From: Thiomicrorhabdus sediminis
Lineage (GTDB): Bacteria; Pseudomonadota; Gammaproteobacteria; Thiomicrospirales; Thiomicrospiraceae
DNA: 64,000 nucleotides
Direction of reading: 5' to 3'
Assembly (NCBI RefSeq): GCF_005885815.1
Contig: NZ_CP040602.1
Coordinates: 2,185,630-2,249,629 of the forward strand
The translations under genes were made by a program, and so were the position numbers. Positions within the stretch are counted from its first letter, which is position 1. The number at the start of each line of letters is the position of its first letter. Below are positions 16,730 through 29,361 of the stretch, piece by piece. The notes under the pieces are model-generated. The model searched no databases, was not told where the DNA came from, and saw only the letters and a list, made by a program, of their open reading frames with translations.

Positions 16730-17050
16730 TTATTCATCTGAGAAAACCCGGACATTCCAATCCTTTGCGAGCCCGTCTTCGGCAAGACAATAGTTCTGAA
16801 AAAAATCGACGATATAGTCTTTTTGGCAGTGCAGCTCGAAATCGGCCATTGAAGCCCAGATTTCGTTAAACACTATCGGGAAACCGGTTCCCTCGGCAAA
16901 AGAGCTGGCAACCTGCCGGGTGACTCGGTATTGAATACAGCCGTCTTCTCTTAAGGTTTGCGGCTCTAGCGAACGTAGCACTTCAAACAGGGCTTGTTCC
17001 TGACCGGCTTTAGGCAAAAATTCGGCAATACAGTAAACTTTGGATGACAT
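16730..17050 (-). CDS. Antibiotic biosynthesis monooxygenase (ABM/YgiN-like) domain protein
   Basis: Small 106-residue protein with the ferredoxin-like ABM fold: the opening VYCIAEFLPKAGQEQALFEVL, a central strand region FPIVFNEIWASMADFELH and a closing helix near the C-terminus. Family members include quinol monooxygenases and heme-degrading enzymes, but many have no known substrate, and no specific motif here decides among them. It ends the pair that begins with the GGDEF-EAL gene, starting 8 bp after that gene's stop, so the two are probably co-transcribed. Confidence 0.82.
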   Translation of the reverse strand: MSSKVYCIAEFLPKAGQEQALFEVLRSLEPQTLREDGCIQYRVTRQVASSFAEGTGFPIVFNEIWASMADFELHCQKDYIVDFFQNYCLAEDGLAKDWNVRVFSDE

Positions 17051-17058
17051 CCTATTCC

Positions 17059-18963
17059 TTATTGATTAAGTCCATCATTGTGTTGTTGGATAAATTCGAT
17101 TAGCTTTTCCAGCGGCAAGGGCCTGCTATAGTAGAAACCTTGGATTTCATCACAACCTATTTTTTTGAGAAGCGCGCACTGCGCTTGTGTCTCAACCCCT
17201 TCGGCGAGCACTTTCAAGCCCAAATTATGCCCCATTTCGATAATACTTGCAGTAATCGCATAATCATCATTACCGTCTTCCAATTCACGAATAAAGGATT
17301 GGTCGATTTTCAAGCGGCTTGCGGGTAACGATTTTAAATAACTCAATGATGAATAGGCGATACCAAAATCGTCAATCGAGACCGTCATTCTTTCTTGCTG
17401 AAATCGGCTCAGGGTTTGAATCGCTTCTTGCGGTGAGCGCATCACCGCGCTTTCGGTGAGCTCCAAGTCGATTTTTTCGGCTTTGACACCGGTGCGATGC
17501 AACAATGCCAATAGATGATCAAGCAGGGAGGGCTCTTCAAATTGTCTGGCAGACAAATTGATACTCATGCTATGCAGGTCGATACCCTTTAATTGCAAAG
17601 TTTTCAGGTCGATCAATGCCTGCTCAAAAATCCAATACCCCAAAGGCACAATCAACCCGGTGTGCTCGGCGATAGGAATGAAATCGGCGGGACTCAAGCT
17701 GCCCAGCTCCTTGTCCTGCCAACGAACCAAAGCCTCGACCCCGCAGATCTGTTCGGTCTGTATATTGATTTTTGGCTGATATTCCAAATAAAAGCCTTTT
17801 TGTTCGTTGATGGCGCGGCGCAGGCTATTCTCGATACGCAGTCGAGCTTGTGATAACGACAACAGATTCTGTTGAAATAGTAGATAACGGTTGCGCCCTT
17901 GGATTTTGGCCTCGTTCATCGCGGTTTCGGCTTCGCGCGCCAATAATATAAAATCATCACTCGGCTCGACTTTAAAGGCGATACCGACACTACAGGTCAA
18001 AATCACCTGTTCATCTTCAAGTTCAATCGGCTCGGCAAGAGTCGCCAGTAATTTTTGCGCCAGCCTTTCCACCGTCTCTTTGTCAGGATAATTCATTATC
18101 GCTACGGTGAAGTGGTCACCGCCAAAGCGCGAGACAATGTTTTGATGCCGCGCTGCAATCTGCTTGATACGTGTCGAGACCTGCTGCAATACCAAATCTC
18201 CGGTGGAATGACCAAAAGATTCGTTAATGGCTTTGAAACCGTCTAAACCGATTGCCAGTACGGCAAGCCTTTTCTGCTTCCATTCCGGCTCTTTGGTATA
18301 GATTTCACCTAACTCTGCAAACATGGTGCGGTTGGGAAAACCGGTCAAGGAATCGAAATGTGACAACTTATAGATAGTCTCTTCCGAAGATTGCTGCAAT
18401 TCATCAATCAGCTGCATATTCTGCTGGCGCAACTTGACCGTATCGAACGCCAATAAGGTGATAAAAATCAGTGCTAACACCAGTACAATACGGGTGGTCA
18501 GCTCAACCGGGAGGAAAAAAGCGCCCAGACAACCGATGGCGGCAAATCCAAAAAAACGCATCTTATTGATATAGAGAAAGTCGGAAATATAGGCGAAATA
18601 AAGCAGCGCATAGATCATCGCCACCCTGATTTGAAAATCACTGCTTTGGTTTTCTATAAAAAGCGGCACGATAATCAGTACCAGCAAAGCGATGCTTTTC
18701 AAATAAAACAGCATCACCTCCAAAGCATCGATGGATTTACAAAAACCGACCACCCCGAAGCCAAACAAGGGCACAAGAAACAGCGATATGGCAAGAATCA
18801 AGTCGCTCTCGAGATTCTGCCATAGGGAAAACACGGAAAAAATAAGAATAAGGACTACCGAAAACTTGATCCGCAACATCACGGTTTTTCGATAATTCTC
18901 GGTACTGTAGCCATGATGAGGCAAAACTCTAAATTGACTATTATTCTCCACAGATGACCTCAT
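17059..18963 (-). CDS. Membrane GGDEF-EAL protein, probable c-di-GMP phosphodiesterase
   Basis: About 634 residues. Five or six hydrophobic segments lie between about residues 30 and 175, then a GGDEF domain, then an EAL domain. The GGDEF domain looks inactive: the signature reads GGDHF (about 281-285), with His for the metal-binding Glu, and the first Asp of the usual DxDxFK block is Gly (IGLDGFKAIN). The EAL domain looks intact, with EALVRW near 410, the NLSARQ, ELTES and DDFG blocks, the Lys of LKIDQSF and EGVET. It should therefore hydrolyse c-di-GMP, perhaps with GTP binding to the degenerate GGDEF as a control. ATG at 18963 is preferred to GTG at 18966. Confidence 0.9.
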   Translation of the reverse strand: MRSSVENNSQFRVLPHHGYSTENYRKTVMLRIKFSVVLILIFSVFSLWQNLESDLILAISLFLVPLFGFGVVGFCKSIDALEVMLFYLKSIALLVLIIVPLFIENQSSDFQIRVAMIYALLYFAYISDFLYINKMRFFGFAAIGCLGAFFLPVELTTRIVLVLALIFITLLAFDTVKLRQQNMQLIDELQQSSEETIYKLSHFDSLTGFPNRTMFAELGEIYTKEPEWKQKRLAVLAIGLDGFKAINESFGHSTGDLVLQQVSTRIKQIAARHQNIVSRFGGDHFTVAIMNYPDKETVERLAQKLLATLAEPIELEDEQVILTCSVGIAFKVEPSDDFILLAREAETAMNEAKIQGRNRYLLFQQNLLSLSQARLRIENSLRRAINEQKGFYLEYQPKINIQTEQICGVEALVRWQDKELGSLSPADFIPIAEHTGLIVPLGYWIFEQALIDLKTLQLKGIDLHSMSINLSARQFEEPSLLDHLLALLHRTGVKAEKIDLELTESAVMRSPQEAIQTLSRFQQERMTVSIDDFGIAYSSLSYLKSLPASRLKIDQSFIRELEDGNDDYAITASIIEMGHNLGLKVLAEGVETQAQCALLKKIGCDEIQGFYYSRPLPLEKLIEFIQQHNDGLNQ

Positions 18964-19225
18964 CACTGATAACCTATATTTTTAAGACATAAGCGCCGTA
19001 ATTACTTTCACATATTAATCAACGATTTGCAATCGACTACCGTTTTCAACCCAAACCGAATTGAAACACCAAGCAACCCGTGCTCTACTCAGTGTAGGGT
19101 CAGCAAACCTGAATGTTAAATCAGAATATCTGATATGGGCGCAAAATTATGCGCGCAGGCTCCCTCATTCAATATAATGACGTTAAGATTTTTAGTTAAA
19201 CCGCAAACCCCGATACCCGTCATTT

Positions 19226-20185: not shown

Positions 20186-20288
20186 AAAAATGGCAACAAT
20201 TCAATGTTGCTTACAGCCAAAATAGTTTTTTAATCAGCTCAGTTATGTAATACTGCAAATTCTTCCTTATTAAATGCGGGGGAATGCG

Positions 20289-22361
20289 ATGATTAAAGCA
20301 ACTGTAAACGGTCGTAACGTCGAGCTTGAACAAGGCGCTACCTTATTGGACGCCGCGCGTCTTGCCGAAGTGCATATTCCAACCCTGTGCTATTACCCTC
20401 GCTTGCCAACCCATGCGGTTTGCCGTATGTGCCTGGTTGAGGTCAGCAGTGCGCCCAAACCTCAACCGGCTTGTAAAACCCAAGTCAAGGACGGCGATAT
20501 TATCGTCACCGATTCGGCCAAACTGGAAGAGTTTCGCAAGACCGATATGCAATGGCTGCTGGCTCGCCACCCCAATGATTGTATTCGCTGTGAAGTCAAC
20601 GGCTCCTGCCAGTTCCAAAACCTGGTCAGTGAATATCAACTGGAAGATGTCTGGCCGAAACTGCCGCGTGGCTCGATTCAGCACCCCGAACACCGCTTGA
20701 CCGACCACACCTCGCCAAGCATCTGGCGAGACCTCTCCAAATGTGTCGAATGCGGACTTTGTGCCGAAGCCTGTGGCGATGCCGGACAAAATTTGCATAT
20801 TATCGGGTTTGCCGAACGCAGTTCAGGACGGATTCCGGTGACCGTATTCGATCAAGAACTTTCCCAAACCGATTGTATCTCATGCGGCCAATGCACTCTG
20901 GTCTGCCCGGTGGGCGCTTTGATCGAAACGCCGCACTGGCATGATGTGATCCATACTCTAGATAGCCACCGCCGCGTCTCCGCGGTGCAGGTCGCACCAG
21001 CGACACGCGTTGCGATCGGTGAAGAGTTTGGCATGAAACCCGGTACTATCAGCACCGGTCGGATGATTAACGCCTTACGTCAACTCGGCTTCGATTATGT
21101 CTTTGATACCAACTTTGCCGCAGATTTGACCATTATGGAAGAAGGCACCGAATTATTGGCCCGCCTCAAAGAACACAAAAACCTGCCTTTATTCACCTCG
21201 TGTTGTCCCGGCTGGATTAACTGGGTGGAAATCCATCGTCCGGATATCCTGCCTCATCTCAGCACCACCAAATCACCCCAACAGATGCATGGCGCCCTAA
21301 CCAAGCGTGGCGCTTTTGCGAAAAGCTTGGGCGCTGGTTTTGCTGAAGGCGAGGATGAACCCTATGTGGTCAGCGTCATGCCTTGTACCGCAAAAAAAGA
21401 CGAAGCGCAGCGCCCTGGCGTTTCCGAGGATGTCGATCATGTGCTCACCACACGTGAATTGGCTCGTATGATTAAAGCCCGCGGCATCAAGTTCAATGCG
21501 CTTGAGGAAGATGGCGAATTTGATAATCCTCTGGGTGAAAGTACCGGTGCTGCGCAAATCTTCGGCGCCTCCGGCGGCGTTATGGAAGCGGTTGTCAGAA
21601 CCGCCGCACACTTTATTGGTGAAGAAGATTCGTTACCCATGGATTGGCATCAATTGCGCGGCGTCCATCAAGGCATTAAAACCGCCGAGATCTCAGGCGT
21701 CGGCAAGGTTGCCATCTGTAACGGCATTGCCGCCGCACAACGACTGCTGGCAGATGAAAGCTGGCGCGACGAGTTCATCGCCATAGAAGTCATGGCTTGC
21801 GTCGGCGGCTGCCTGGGTGGCGGCGGCGAACCCAAATCGATGGATCCTCAAGTACTGCAAAAACGCATGCAGGCAATTTATCAGATTGATCAGAATTCAC
21901 CACGACGCCGCTCTTATGAAAACCGCGACGTTCAAACCCTCTATGCCACCGAGCTTGACCAGCCCAATTCAGCCAAGGCGCATAAACTATTACACACCCA
22001 CTATGCGCCAAGGCATTCGAAACGCTTGTTGTTGATGCAGTTTCTCGACAGTGTCGACCGTCGTGATAGCTCACGTATTGAGCAGCTGTTTCACCCGCAA
22101 GCCATTTGGTCAACGGCCTCGCCTTTTGGTGAAGTCAAAGGCATTGAAAATATCAAACGATTGATTTCCGAAAAATTGCCACCAAGGCAATTCGCGGCCA
22201 TGTTTGCCCGCCATCAAATGCGTTCTGCCGCAGATAGTGAAGACCTAACCGTTATAACCCCGCTAGGAGAGACCTGTCGTTTCCACGTGGAACTGACAGA
22301 AACCGATGCCGGAACTGGAGGCAGACCATTAATAAAACGTCTGCAAAGAGAAGTCCTGTAG
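20289..22361 (+). CDS. [FeFe] hydrogenase, M3-type, with extra C-terminal domain
   Basis: Catalyses proton reduction or H2 oxidation. The 690-residue protein has, in order: a [2Fe-2S] domain (Cys34, 45, 48, 62); a His-ligated [4Fe-4S] site (His94, Cys98, 101, 107); two more [4Fe-4S] motifs (Cys152-162, Cys196-206); and the H-cluster domain with TSCCPGW (303-309), MPCTAKKDE (364-372) and MACVGGCLGGG (502-512). All cluster ligands and the proton-transfer Cys305 are present. The usual C-terminus ends near LLHTHY (567-572). About 117 more residues follow and resemble an NTF2/SnoaL-like fold. No signal peptide is seen, so it is cytoplasmic. No maturase genes are in the window. ATG 20289 follows a CGGGGGA site. 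Confidence 0.95.
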   Translation: MIKATVNGRNVELEQGATLLDAARLAEVHIPTLCYYPRLPTHAVCRMCLVEVSSAPKPQPACKTQVKDGDIIVTDSAKLEEFRKTDMQWLLARHPNDCIRCEVNGSCQFQNLVSEYQLEDVWPKLPRGSIQHPEHRLTDHTSPSIWRDLSKCVECGLCAEACGDAGQNLHIIGFAERSSGRIPVTVFDQELSQTDCISCGQCTLVCPVGALIETPHWHDVIHTLDSHRRVSAVQVAPATRVAIGEEFGMKPGTISTGRMINALRQLGFDYVFDTNFAADLTIMEEGTELLARLKEHKNLPLFTSCCPGWINWVEIHRPDILPHLSTTKSPQQMHGALTKRGAFAKSLGAGFAEGEDEPYVVSVMPCTAKKDEAQRPGVSEDVDHVLTTRELARMIKARGIKFNALEEDGEFDNPLGESTGAAQIFGASGGVMEAVVRTAAHFIGEEDSLPMDWHQLRGVHQGIKTAEISGVGKVAICNGIAAAQRLLADESWRDEFIAIEVMACVGGCLGGGGEPKSMDPQVLQKRMQAIYQIDQNSPRRRSYENRDVQTLYATELDQPNSAKAHKLLHTHYAPRHSKRLLLMQFLDSVDRRDSSRIEQLFHPQAIWSTASPFGEVKGIENIKRLISEKLPPRQFAAMFARHQMRSAADSEDLTVITPLGETCRFHVELTETDAGTGGRPLIKRLQREVL

Positions 22362-23569: not shown

Positions 23570-23881
23570 TTATTTAAGAGTGATCACTTCGGAGCCTTTT
23601 TCTCCGGTATTGTCTGATAACTGAACCGTTACCTTATCACCTTTATCGGCCTTAACCTTGACCGCCATATAAGGGTTGGCCGAAACCGCACCTGACCATT
23701 GGGCATCAACGGTTTTCTCACCATTTACCAGCACTTCCACCATATCGATAAATTTCGCTGGATACGGCTTACCGGTTTTCTTATTCATACGCGCACCGGA
23801 TTCCATCTCATGCTTAATCAAAGCTTTGATTTCAGCTACGCCATTGACTGATTTACCACGCATTCTGATTTTAATACTCAT
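23570..23881 (-). CDS. soxZ: Thiosulfate oxidation carrier protein SoxZ
   Basis: Partner of SoxY in the periplasmic Sox carrier complex, which holds the sulfur atoms of thiosulfate during oxidation. The 103-residue beta-sandwich has the family opening IKIRMRGK, KALIKHEMESG, a PAKFIDMVEVLVNG strand, the SANPYMAVKVKA block and the closing GEKGSEVITLK. It has no signal peptide, as expected, since SoxZ is thought to travel with SoxY through the Tat system. Two adjacent ATG codons (23881, 23884) follow GAGGA; the inner gives better spacing. The gap to soxY is 185 bases, wide for this pair, and holds a structured repeat. Confidence 0.96.
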   Translation of the reverse strand: MSIKIRMRGKSVNGVAEIKALIKHEMESGARMNKKTGKPYPAKFIDMVEVLVNGEKTVDAQWSGAVSANPYMAVKVKADKGDKVTVQLSDNTGEKGSEVITLK

Positions 23882-23959
23882 CATCTTGTCCTCTACAGAA
23901 TTCTTAATCTAAAGTTTTGGCTTTTTAAATAGTTACGTTTTAAAAAGAGAGATTTTATT

Positions 23960-24066: not shown

Positions 24067-24534
24067 CTAGCCGCCGCAGCCACCAATCGTGACTTTAACT
24101 TCTTGTTTCGCTTGATAGAGTTTGCCACCGGCTTTGACCACCGCCATGACATCCATGGTTTGTCCCATCTTGATACGAGTCGAGACATAACCTTCGGCAC
24201 CGGCGGCAAATCGGTATTCACAAACCAACGGCTGCGGGTTCTTGCTGGCAAGAATCGCAATCGACTCCACGCCTTCAAGTGCCGAAGCATCAACCGTCAC
24301 CGGGGTTACCGCACCATTTTCTGCAATTGCCGGCGCCTTTAATTGAATATCGCCCGACTCTGCAACACTGCTGCTACCAAAAATTCCTTTCAATGCCTCA
24401 TCACTGGTCTTCGCACTGAAAGCCTGTTTGTTCCAATCCGCTAATACGGTTGTTGGAGTTAGTAAACCTGCATTCACCGCAATCAATGCAGAACCGGTTG
24501 CTAATCCGTGTTTTAAAAATGATCTACGTTTCAT
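24067..24534 (-). CDS. soxY: Thiosulfate oxidation carrier protein SoxY
   Basis: Carries sulfur intermediates on a C-terminal Cys in the periplasmic Sox pathway. The 155-residue precursor opens with a Tat signal (KRRSFLKHG, then a hydrophobic stretch ending near residue 32). It ends in KVTIGGCGG with Cys153 as the substrate-binding residue on a flexible arm, the diagnostic SoxY feature. The SoxY body includes IQLKAPAIAENGAVTPV and the ESIAILASKNPQPLV strand. It precedes soxZ on the same strand; soxA, soxB, soxX and soxCD are not in the window, so the rest of the pathway must be encoded elsewhere. GGAGC sits upstream of the ATG. Confidence 0.97.
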   Translation of the reverse strand: MKRRSFLKHGLATGSALIAVNAGLLTPTTVLADWNKQAFSAKTSDEALKGIFGSSSVAESGDIQLKAPAIAENGAVTPVTVDASALEGVESIAILASKNPQPLVCEYRFAAGAEGYVSTRIKMGQTMDVMAVVKAGGKLYQAKQEVKVTIGGCGG

Positions 24535-25781: not shown

Positions 25782-27098
25782 ATGAAGTCTGCAAATATCC
25801 CCAATATGCCGCCAAAAATTGAGTCCATCAATAAGAAGCCTCTGTATCTATTGGCGCTGATTCTTTTAACGACCTATTTGCTGGTTTCATTTGTCCTTTA
25901 TGACAAAATCCGCCAATCAACGATTGAAAACAAGCTTAATGATTTAAGCCATCATCTACTCTACCAAAAAGCCTTACGTAGCTATATCAGCAACAATGTC
26001 AAACCGGTAATCTACGATTATATGCATCAAGGTCTGCTTTCATCGGACTACTTTGAAAAACGTGTCTTATCTTCGGCCTATATCTCAGAGCAGGTTTTCC
26101 GTATTTATCAGAACCTGCTTATTGAGAACCAATTACCCGAGTGGCAATACCGGATAGCCGCCAGTAATGCGATGAATCCGAAAAACCAGGCAAGCCAAAC
26201 CGAGTTGGAATTGATAGAGCGTTTCAACCAGGAGCCTAATTTAAAGCAGATCCAGAATATTGATAGCATCAATGGCAAAGAAGCGCTTCATGTCATATTG
26301 CCTTTGGCAAAAACACAATCTTCATGCTTATATTGTCATGGTGATCCGAAACAGGCTCCGCAAGATTTGATCGAACAATATGGCAGTGAACGCGGCTTTT
26401 TTGAACCGGTCGGTAAAATTCGCGGTTTTATTTCCTATAAGATCGACTTGGATAATGCCTTAAAGACCTCCAAACAAGCTTTTCTCACCGTCAATACAAT
26501 CATCTTGCTAACCTCTATTCTGATTTTCGTGCTGGTCAGCCTGATCTACAACTCGGAGCAGAAGAGAAAATTGCTCAACAACAAATTACAACGTGAAACA
26601 CATTATATTGCTCATCATGACTTTTTGACCGGATTGAAAAACCGTCATAGCCTGAATTTGACTCTGCCGCAAAAACTCATCGAGTATCAAGAATCCGACA
26701 ATAAAAAAGCCATTTGGGCGATAATGATCGATATCGATCACTTTAAGAAGATCAATGACAGCTACGGTCATGATATCGGCGATCGGGCTTTGCAGGAACT
26801 TGGCAAAATTCTGAAAAGGGTCGCCAAATTCTATATCAACGCCGATGTCTATCGTTTAGGCGGTGAGGAATTTCTTATCGTGCTAGAAGGCACTGAAGAT
26901 TCGATCAAACAGCTTTATCACCGCATCCAAGAGCTACTCGATAAAATCACAATCGATCAGTGTGAACAAGACATAAAAGTTTCTGCCGGGGCGACAGCAT
27001 ACCGTCGGCAAGAACAGCAATACGATTTTCTTAAGCGTGCCGACAACGCGCTTTACAGCGCCAAGCAGCAAGGGCGTAACTGCATGGTCATCGATTGA
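25782..27098 (+). CDS. Diguanylate cyclase with periplasmic c-type heme sensor domain
   Basis: Predicted membrane sensor that makes c-di-GMP. Of 438 residues, a membrane segment covers about 21-40, a periplasmic domain 41-232, a second membrane segment 235-256, then a short helix and a GGDEF domain. The periplasmic part has CLYCH at residues 182-186, a single covalent heme c site, followed by a GDPKQAP stretch and ERGFFEPVGKIRGFISYKI split over 203-221, matching the Tll0287-like (DUF3365) sensor fold. The cyclase domain has MIDIDHFKKIND and RLGGEEF (360-364 GGEEF), so it looks active. The RxxD product-inhibition site is absent. Redox or gas sensing is inferred from the heme. Confidence 0.9.
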   Translation: MKSANIPNMPPKIESINKKPLYLLALILLTTYLLVSFVLYDKIRQSTIENKLNDLSHHLLYQKALRSYISNNVKPVIYDYMHQGLLSSDYFEKRVLSSAYISEQVFRIYQNLLIENQLPEWQYRIAASNAMNPKNQASQTELELIERFNQEPNLKQIQNIDSINGKEALHVILPLAKTQSSCLYCHGDPKQAPQDLIEQYGSERGFFEPVGKIRGFISYKIDLDNALKTSKQAFLTVNTIILLTSILIFVLVSLIYNSEQKRKLLNNKLQRETHYIAHHDFLTGLKNRHSLNLTLPQKLIEYQESDNKKAIWAIMIDIDHFKKINDSYGHDIGDRALQELGKILKRVAKFYINADVYRLGGEEFLIVLEGTEDSIKQLYHRIQELLDKITIDQCEQDIKVSAGATAYRRQEQQYDFLKRADNALYSAKQQGRNCMVID

Positions 27099-28197: not shown

Positions 28198-29361
28198 TTA
28201 TGATGCCAAAATTTCGACCAAATCTGAACCATTATATTTGACCGCGCAGTTTCGGCCATGTTGTTTGGCCAGATACATACCGTCGTCGGCAGCTTTATAT
28301 AACCGGTCAAAATCGGCACGTGTTGCCACCTGACTAGAACTGATTCCCATCGATACGGTGACAAAAGGATGCTCGCTTTCGTTGGCGCTACGCAGGTTTA
28401 AATTTTCAATCTCTTTGACCAGTCCAACAAGCCATTTTTCGATATTATCGCTGTCGCGACCGCTGACCAGCCCGCCGAACTCTTCTCCCCCCAATCGAAA
28501 CACCAGGTCGTTCTCGCGTTTGACATAGTCTTTAATGGTCTTGCCCACCAACTGTAACGCCTCGTCTCCCTGTTGATGACCATAGGTGTCGTTGTAGAAT
28601 TTAAAATCATCGATATCCAGTAAAAAGAAGGTCATCTGTTTTTCTTGGTTTTGACTCTGCAGCACAAAATCATCAATCACCTCATTGAAGTAATGGCGGT
28701 TATACAACCCCGTCAAGGCATCGGTACGCGACATATTGCGCAGCTCCTGCATGCACAATTGCTGCGCATTGCGGCGATGATTTTCACGTTTGGCACTGAT
28801 GCATCGACTGAACTCGACCAAAAACGCGACACCGGCAGAAATCAGTGAAATCAGCAGCAAACGGACAATATCATCATAATGCCATTCACCACCATACCAG
28901 CGCCCCACTCCTTGAAAAGCAATCGGCATGATCAGAACCAGCCAAATGGCAAAATACAGCACTCCGGCACGGTTACCGTTAAGCAGAAATAAAATAAAAG
29001 GGATTAACGGCGCCAGAAAAATCAAATCGTATTGATAGGAACTATAACCAAGTAACATGGCATAACCGCATACGGTGATCACCGCGGTGATGTGTCCGAT
29101 CATGACTAGGTTTTGCTTTTTGCGCAACAGCAGCATCAAACCGATAAAGACAAAAAAGGCGATAATATGCATGACAAAGCCGTAAGATCCGGGGGAGGTA
29201 AACAAGTTCAGCGTTGCTAAAAACGCATTCAATAGCACACCCACCAACAATAAGGCATTTGCCAATAATAGCCTTGAATAACGACGTGGATCCTCAATAC
29301 TGGTATCCAATGCCCTTGCCCAGATAGGTTTGGCTGTTTCTAAATCCGCTGACTCTTTCAT
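28198..29361 (-). CDS. Membrane diguanylate cyclase
   Basis: Predicted c-di-GMP synthase of 387 residues. Six hydrophobic segments lie between about residues 30 and 185, a sensor region I cannot assign to a named MASE type. A short linker leads to a GGDEF domain with LLDIDDFKFYND near 247, GGEEF at 291-295 and an intact RxxD inhibitory site (REND, 282-285) nine residues upstream, so it is predicted active and feedback-regulated. It precedes the D-lactate dehydrogenase-like gene by 47 bp on the same strand, which could reflect co-transcription. Confidence 0.92.
   Translation of the reverse strand: MKESADLETAKPIWARALDTSIEDPRRYSRLLLANALLLVGVLLNAFLATLNLFTSPGSYGFVMHIIAFFVFIGLMLLLRKKQNLVMIGHITAVITVCGYAMLLGYSSYQYDLIFLAPLIPFILFLLNGNRAGVLYFAIWLVLIMPIAFQGVGRWYGGEWHYDDIVRLLLISLISAGVAFLVEFSRCISAKRENHRRNAQQLCMQELRNMSRTDALTGLYNRHYFNEVIDDFVLQSQNQEKQMTFFLLDIDDFKFYNDTYGHQQGDEALQLVGKTIKDYVKRENDLVFRLGGEEFGGLVSGRDSDNIEKWLVGLVKEIENLNLRSANESEHPFVTVSMGISSSQVATRADFDRLYKAADDGMYLAKQHGRNCAVKYNGSDLVEILAS

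Follow-up and report, generated by a model that had tools for sequence, protein, structure and literature searches.

The window analyzed here, a stretch of 64,000 nucleotides from Thiomicrorhabdus sediminis, encodes an M3-type group A [FeFe] hydrogenase that carries an added C-terminal domain with a predicted NTF2-like fold. Enzymes with the same fusion form a single clade, and in 21 genomes that hold one we found no HydE, HydF or HydG. The reading that we favor, and to which we give an even chance, is that the window's protein belongs to a distinct NTF2-fused subfamily of M3 group A enzymes and functions as a working redox enzyme whose diiron site, if present, is not made by HydEFG.

Pfam matches and ligand conservation reveal the complete M3 layout, with a [2Fe-2S] cluster, a His-Cys [4Fe-4S] cluster, two further [4Fe-4S] clusters and the H-domain (Table 1). 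The H-cluster motifs L1 (TSCCPGW), L2 (MPCxxKK) and L3 (EVMACxGGCxGGG) are present. The protein scores above the cut-off of the NCBIfam model FeFe_hydrog_A (TIGR02512; 442 bits against 406), and the nearest finer NCBIfam group is A6, at 674 bits and under its cut-off of 765. We used the ATG at 20289, the start common to the relatives, for the gene; an alternative in-frame ATG lies at 20274, and the stop codon occupies 22359-22361. The relatives come from 31 fetched loci, which yielded 27 full-length proteins, 25 of them distinct with the window's own included; cut and broken copies were left out. The initial annotation held that all ligands of the H-cluster and accessory clusters are in place. 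This is borne out across the family of fused enzymes, as the four H-cluster cysteines and the 16 other ligands occur in all 25 sequences.

Table 1. The hydrogenase gene and the domains of its product, in coordinates of the window
Feature	Position	Strand	Residues and remarks
M3-type group A [FeFe] hydrogenase with predicted C-terminal NTF2-like domain	20289..22361	+	690 aa + stop; Pfam, NCBIfam
N-terminal [2Fe-2S] domain, Fer2_4	20289..20516	+	residues 1-76; ligands C34, C45, C48, C62, kept in 25/25
His-Cys3 [4Fe-4S] domain, NADH-G_4Fe-4S_3	20535..20648	+	residues 83-120; H94, C98, C101, C107
Two [4Fe-4S] ferredoxin-like clusters	20724..20942	+	C152/155/158/162 and C196/199/202/206
H-cluster domain, Fe_hyd_lg_C	20982..21824	+	residues 232-512; ligands C306, C366, C504, C508
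H-domain proton path			C305, E285, E288, S325, R292; also K369, M364, M502; mapped by alignment to CpI, kept in 25/25
Fe_hyd_SSU	21849..22013	+	residues 521-575; ends near LLHTHY (residues 567-572)
C-terminal NTF2/SnoaL-like domain (predicted)	22008..22358	+	residues 574-690; profiles, model, alignment

The canonical end of the hydrogenase, LLHTHY, lies at residues 567-572 as first annotated, and we count 118 residues downstream of it where about 117 had been given. The accompanying statement that M3 enzymes end near residue 570-590 also agrees with the solved M3 chains: HydA1 of T. kivui has 571 residues, HydA1 of A. woodii 583 and CpI 574-584. These HydABC subunits and CpI are the closest chains in the PDB, and their matches to the window's protein stop at residue 572-576. 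Because the solved M3 chains and seven plasmid-borne group A-type enzymes (458-596 aa) are shorter, the C-terminal extension is extra. Having a C-terminal addition does not by itself set the enzyme apart, since the HydA of T. maritima (645 aa) also extends beyond its match to our protein. The observation of an M3-type group A [FeFe] hydrogenase with an added C-terminal domain is therefore real and confirmed.

The extension had been assigned by eye to the NTF2/SnoaL fold, and prediction supports the assignment. When the window's C-terminal 120 residues were searched alone against Pfam, SnoaL_2 matched residues 584-630 with an E value of 7e-5, a sub-threshold match (23.8 bits, where the cut-off is 27). 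The SnoaL_4 and SnoaL_2 profiles match all ten members of the domain alignment, with best E values of 2e-7 and 8e-6, respectively. In an AlphaFold2 model built with an alignment of ten relatives, eight of the 11 ten-residue blocks of residues 581-690 reach pLDDT values of 79-89, with weaker values (47-66) at 631-650 and 671-680; the mean over the whole model is 43, and the hydrogenase body is poor. We take the order of helices and strands in the modeled domain to be that of NTF2-like proteins. A single-sequence AlphaFold2 model of residues 562-690 reached a pLDDT of 47 and was discarded.

Structural comparison of the model points to the same fold. Among the 50 VIA-align matches listed, 49 cover the C-terminus, with Z scores of 9.0-10.6 over 98-115 residues, and the remaining one covers the N-terminal 2Fe-2S part. 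The titles of the 49 are mostly NTF2, ketosteroid isomerase, SnoaL, LinA, CaMKII hub, OCP C-terminal homologue or 'cystatin-like', and a few of these listed matches are uncharacterized or designed proteins. A Z score below 8 in VIA-align may reflect a common arrangement; the values for this domain are all higher. With the whole model as the query, the best 50 of 435 Foldseek matches are hydrogenases only. VIA-align re-aligns Foldseek's own candidates, and it is on VIA-align that the fold call rests. A profile search of the PDB with the domain gave E values of 0.33 or worse, with 12 of the 13 matches to steroid delta-isomerase and one to a retro-aldolase. In this weak alignment (E 0.33), Ser611 falls opposite the Asp of the EDPFG segment of ketosteroid isomerase, a residue that is catalytic in that enzyme.

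Profiles and model together thus support an NTF2-like alpha plus beta cone fold for residues 574-690 as the predicted structure. The likeness to the NTF2-like superfamily lies in this fold and in the SnoaL_2 and SnoaL_4 profile matches, whereas the sequence match of the window's own copy is sub-threshold. The extension is modeled as folded rather than disordered, it does match NTF2-like proteins, and it is not universal among group A M3 enzymes.

Sequence conservation extends to the residues around the active site. In CpI numbering, C299, C300, E279, E282, R286, S319, M353, C355, K358, F417, M497, C499 and C503 are identical in all 25 sequences, and the equivalent of Q325 (Q331 here) is kept in 24. 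We assume that the mapped residues play the parts they have in CpI, including proton transfer by C299, E279, E282 and S319. S232 and S357 of CpI are replaced by Ala in all 25 fused enzymes; in T. kivui and A. woodii, the S232 position is likewise Ala and the S357 position is Gly or Ala.

Both the hydrogenase body and the NTF2-like domain are under purifying selection. By Nei-Gojobori counting, body dN/dS is 0.028-0.065 in eight pairs, values that are rough for the six pairs whose body dS exceeds 1. Firmer values come from the two most similar pairs, whose dS in the body is 0.37 and 0.39; their dN/dS is 0.039 and 0.034 in the body, and 0.190 and 0.147 in the domain. Six of the eight pairs give domain values of 0.079-0.190, and in the other two dS is saturated and yields no value. 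Of the domain's 117 alignment columns, 35 are invariant, including R575, D587, D590, R592, W607, S611, R633, R641, H642, D652 and C663. This invariance across 25 sequences, together with a dN/dS of 0.08-0.19, confirms that the extension is not a product of chance or a frame artifact. From the conserved residues and the low dN/dS we infer that cells use the protein, its domain included.

The initial annotation proposed looking for the same fusion in other proteobacteria, and it is indeed present in other Pseudomonadota: the 25 distinct full-length proteins come from records labeled Gammaproteobacteria, Alphaproteobacteria and Gallionellaceae. A scan of species genomes returned 11 loci at 68-84% identity. 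Nine are full-length, all with the domain; L010 leaves its contig within the domain, and L011, which contains a frame change, is a contig-end fragment covering residues 182-299. Because five of the scan's six peptide patterns fall in the hydrogenase body, close non-fused relatives were also detectable. Within the window's own family, the gene occurs in 17 of 62 genomes, with every match reaching query residue 687-690 and no internal stop in any of them. Two family matches start late, one at a contig end (G422) and one in a damaged copy (G423). The latter, in a draft genome (L071:2-1674), changes frame near residue 96 and is missing about 78 residues (193-270) around the second 4Fe-4S cluster. 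It represents either misassembly or real decay, in which case some hosts may be able to do without the gene. Every clade relative with a readable C-terminus keeps the NTF2-like domain.

Across the sampled phylum, four of 398 genomes match: the window's own, two more with fused enzymes and one (G697) with a non-fused enzyme of 415 aa. A profile of the domain finds four of 369 class genomes at E<=1e-8, three in reading frames of the hydrogenase's size (692-701 aa) and one cut by a contig start; no stand-alone copy of the domain was seen among these 369 genomes, and a search of plasmids found no copy. Matches to the body come from 15 plasmid records, all below 60% identity. Thirteen of them end by query residue 576, and the other two at 581 and 601, the latter beyond its annotated 582-aa protein. 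One group A-like enzyme without the NTF2 domain, on a Cetobacterium plasmid (L127:983-2704), is encoded between fdhF and a molybdenum cofactor guanylyltransferase gene, an arrangement that suggests a formate-linked complex.

A tree on residues 145-573 places the 25 fused enzymes in one clade (100/100) on a long stem, and the comparison set of eight other, non-fused group A-type enzymes, several of them long-branched, shows the clade's separateness from these enzymes, not its exact position in the family. Rather than grouping with its own genus, the window's copy joins enzymes from two further genera in the family (96/91). Copies from metagenome-assembled genomes labeled Alphaproteobacteria are scattered through the tree. 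These placements suggest horizontal transfer, in a tree that leaves 13 of its 30 inner branches without resolution and for assemblies whose labels can be wrong.

To our knowledge, HydE, HydF and HydG are the only machinery for building the diiron site of the H-cluster. We searched for them in 21 genomes with a fused enzyme, which represent five families and seven genera by label and include the one with the broken-looking G423 copy. Nine of these genomes are single-contig and some are drafts; 19 have a completeness of 90% or more with contamination of 5% or less. Profile searches found HydG in none of the 21 at E<=1e-3 and HydF in none at E<=1e-40. HydE did not exceed its cut-off in any of them, and the three weak matches are BioB (G341, G335) and HemN (G436). 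In the window's own genome, the best HydF match reached 98 bits against a cut-off of 326, and the second was Era. The same searches applied to the non-fused G697 returned HydG at 536, HydE at 298 and HydF at 513 bits, all close to the hydrogenase on the same contig. Since only one clade and one non-fused genome link the fusion to maturase absence, the association may reflect a single evolutionary event.

HydE and HydG work might in principle fall to another radical-SAM protein. A Pfam census of the window's own complete genome gave nine such proteins over the cut-off and one below it, namely MoaA, RimO, HemW, MiaB, HemN, BioB, LipA, RlmN, EpmB and QueE, all housekeeping. Three further weak places (E 0.1-5.6, two with stops) were taken as noise. 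Judged by family, this genome, the one in which radical-SAM genes were identified, appears to hold no spare protein above noise for either task. Radical-SAM genes were also counted in twelve genomes, some with the hydrogenase and some lacking it; there are 8-11 in nine members of the same family and 11, 13 and 16 in three distant fused genomes. They point to no extra enzyme in the family; the distant fused genomes could hold one.

The gene neighborhood offers neither a widely shared partner nor a candidate for an alternative maturase: besides the hydrogenase, each gene cluster occurs in nine or fewer of the 31 fetched loci, a set in which two loci duplicate others and several are short at contig ends. 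The cluster that reaches nine resembles, by eye, a glutamate synthase small-subunit gene. In the window, the hydrogenase is flanked by a transporter and an epimerase, and no HydB- or HydC-like (NuoF/NuoE-like) genes adjoin it; nor do such genes form a neighbor cluster shared by more than nine of the 31 loci. Upstream of the 25 genes we found no sigma-54 boxes and no clear excess of FNR/ANR boxes (FNR in 2 of 25 against 0.8 expected with one mismatch, and in 11 of 25 against 7.7 with two).

Several other genes in the surroundings deserve mention. Beyond the downstream epimerase gene, the minus strand encodes SoxZ (23573-23884) and SoxY (24070-24534), which fit a sulfur-oxidizing host and lie near the hydrogenase in only four of the 31 loci. 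Three genes of GGDEF type by eye, one of them also EAL-like, lie within 10 kb at 17059-18966 (-), 28198-29361 (-) and 25782-27098 (+); a merged GGDEF cluster appears in eight of the 31 loci, perhaps merely because such genes are common. A gene for a small ABM-domain (antibiotic biosynthesis monooxygenase-like) protein is located upstream of the hydrogenase at 16733-17050 (-). Genes that by eye resemble selD and tRNA 2-selenouridine synthase lie near the hydrogenase in L001, L054, L058, L062, L064 and L066, two of which are from the same genome. In L002, three related genes, each of about 600 codons, stand in tandem directly 5' of the hydrogenase, about 5 kb upstream of 10001.

On the reading that we favor, the subfamily would be a stand-alone and probably horizontally exchanged enzyme of sulfur-oxidizing and related Pseudomonadota. 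Its four accessory clusters would carry electrons to an H-domain still built for proton/H2 chemistry, and the diiron site, if present, would be assembled by a route other than HydEFG. The near-complete retention of the pocket and the proton path speaks for a diiron site that carries out hydrogen chemistry. The NTF2-like domain would most likely provide a dimer interface, a small-molecule pocket for an effector or cofactor precursor, or both, beside the catalytic body; the initial annotation had suggested that it might bind a small ligand, dimerize or protect the enzyme from oxygen. Several observations weigh against this reading. The missing maturases would be explained most simply by an enzyme that never receives a [2Fe] subsite, the neighborhoods yielded neither an alternative maturation gene nor an operon partner to serve as one, and one of the 21 genomes has the broken-looking G423 copy. 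In addition, three Thiomicrospira species reported with [FeFe] hydrogenases, which may be of this subfamily, consumed no H2 in culture (PMC4744846).

A real possibility, although we lean somewhat against it, is that the protein holds only the [4Fe-4S] half of the H-cluster along with its other clusters. It would then serve as an electron carrier, a redox or gas sensor or another kind of reductase, with the NTF2-like domain as an effector or substrate pocket. The absence of all three maturases from 21 of 21 genomes fits this alternative, as does the lack of any unassigned radical-SAM protein above noise in the window's own genome. E. coli, which is without HydEFG, makes [FeFe] hydrogenases that hold the [4Fe-4S] cluster alone (PMC6984386). 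Rhodospirillum rubrum is also without maturases, and on that same ground earlier authors judged its enzyme probably inactive or differently employed, as reported in PMC4967309. The three related species that consumed no H2 count on this side as well. What stands against it is the conservation of residues that such a protein would not need: those of the proton path and diiron pocket are invariant in 25 of 25 sequences, apart from Q331 in 24.

We regard as rather unlikely the bolder combination in which a complete H-cluster is built without HydEFG and the NTF2-like domain itself does some of the maturases' work by holding or passing a diiron precursor. The sole support for this idea is that the fusion and the maturase absence co-occur in one clade.

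It is highly improbable that HydEFG is present and was missed, whether too diverged, on an unassembled plasmid or supplied by neighboring organisms. The searches relied on curated models with thresholds, among them E<=1e-40 for HydF, and some genomes are drafts. However, most of the 21 genomes are near complete and nine are in one contig, the same models detect all three proteins in G697 (298-536 bits), and the radical-SAM census of the window's genome leaves nothing unassigned above noise.

We give still less credence to an ordinary M3 hydrogenase with an ordinary SnoaL-like dimerization domain unlinked to the missing maturases. NTF2-like domains often dimerize, and CaMKII hub domains are among the structural matches. 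In CbA5H, an accessory SLBB domain participates in the dimer (PMC13397568). By itself, though, this explanation leaves the assembly of the active site unaccounted for, and it must also face the retention of the domain in every clade relative with a readable C-terminus. Finally, a decaying relic of a transferred, disused hydrogenase is the least credible account: patchy presence (17 of 62 family genomes), the lack of an operon, the G423 copy and the L011 fragment with its frame change would suit it, but it is mostly rejected by the low body dN/dS, and the 17 family matches contain no stop and the cluster ligands are kept in all 25 full-length copies, a set that by construction excludes broken ones.

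Hydrogenase genes without HydEFG have so far been set aside as probably inactive. Here, a clade across several bacterial families keeps its catalytic residues under strong selection in genomes where HydEFG was not found. A diiron site in the protein would mean that the H-cluster can be made by a second route; without one, the H-domain fold would have a conserved function other than that of a hydrogenase. The absence of maturases changes the likely nature of the enzyme from the one pictured in the initial annotation.

Among known systems, the A3/A6-type HydA subunits of the HydABC complexes from T. kivui (8a6t) and A. woodii (7q4v) have the same M3 layout and H-domain to residue 575-576, at 495 and 434 bits. 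They show no match to the C-terminal domain of the window's protein. The window's protein also differs in scoring below the A6 cut-off, in having no HydB/HydC-like neighbors and in that maturases were not found in its genome; two plasmid A6 genes adjoin NuoE/NuoF-like genes, unlike the window's gene. CpI (C. pasteurianum, group A1, M3) shares the domain order and the active-site residues (370 bits). It differs in its length of 574-584 residues and in the Ser at two pocket positions that are Ala in the fused clade. CpI needs HydEFG.

Closer relatives may already have been described. Greening et al. (2015) placed proteins of Thiomicrospira and Hydrogenovibrio in group A1, an assignment called uncertain for want of biochemistry in PMC4744846; neither 'HydE' nor 'C-terminal' occurs in the main text of that paper. 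They come from the same lineage as the window's enzyme and are probably the same protein. In the open-access literature, covered by titles and opening abstracts for the longer result lists, we found no fusion of an NTF2-like or SnoaL domain to an [FeFe] hydrogenase and no tie of such a fusion to maturase absence. Proteobacterial [FeFe] hydrogenases without maturases do have a precedent in print. R. rubrum and Entamoeba resemble the present case in having a hydrogenase gene without HydEFG, and Entamoeba invadens is tabulated with [FeFe] hydrogenases and no maturases in PMC4967309. The fused enzymes differ from both in that the maturase-less set here is a conserved clade in 21 genomes.
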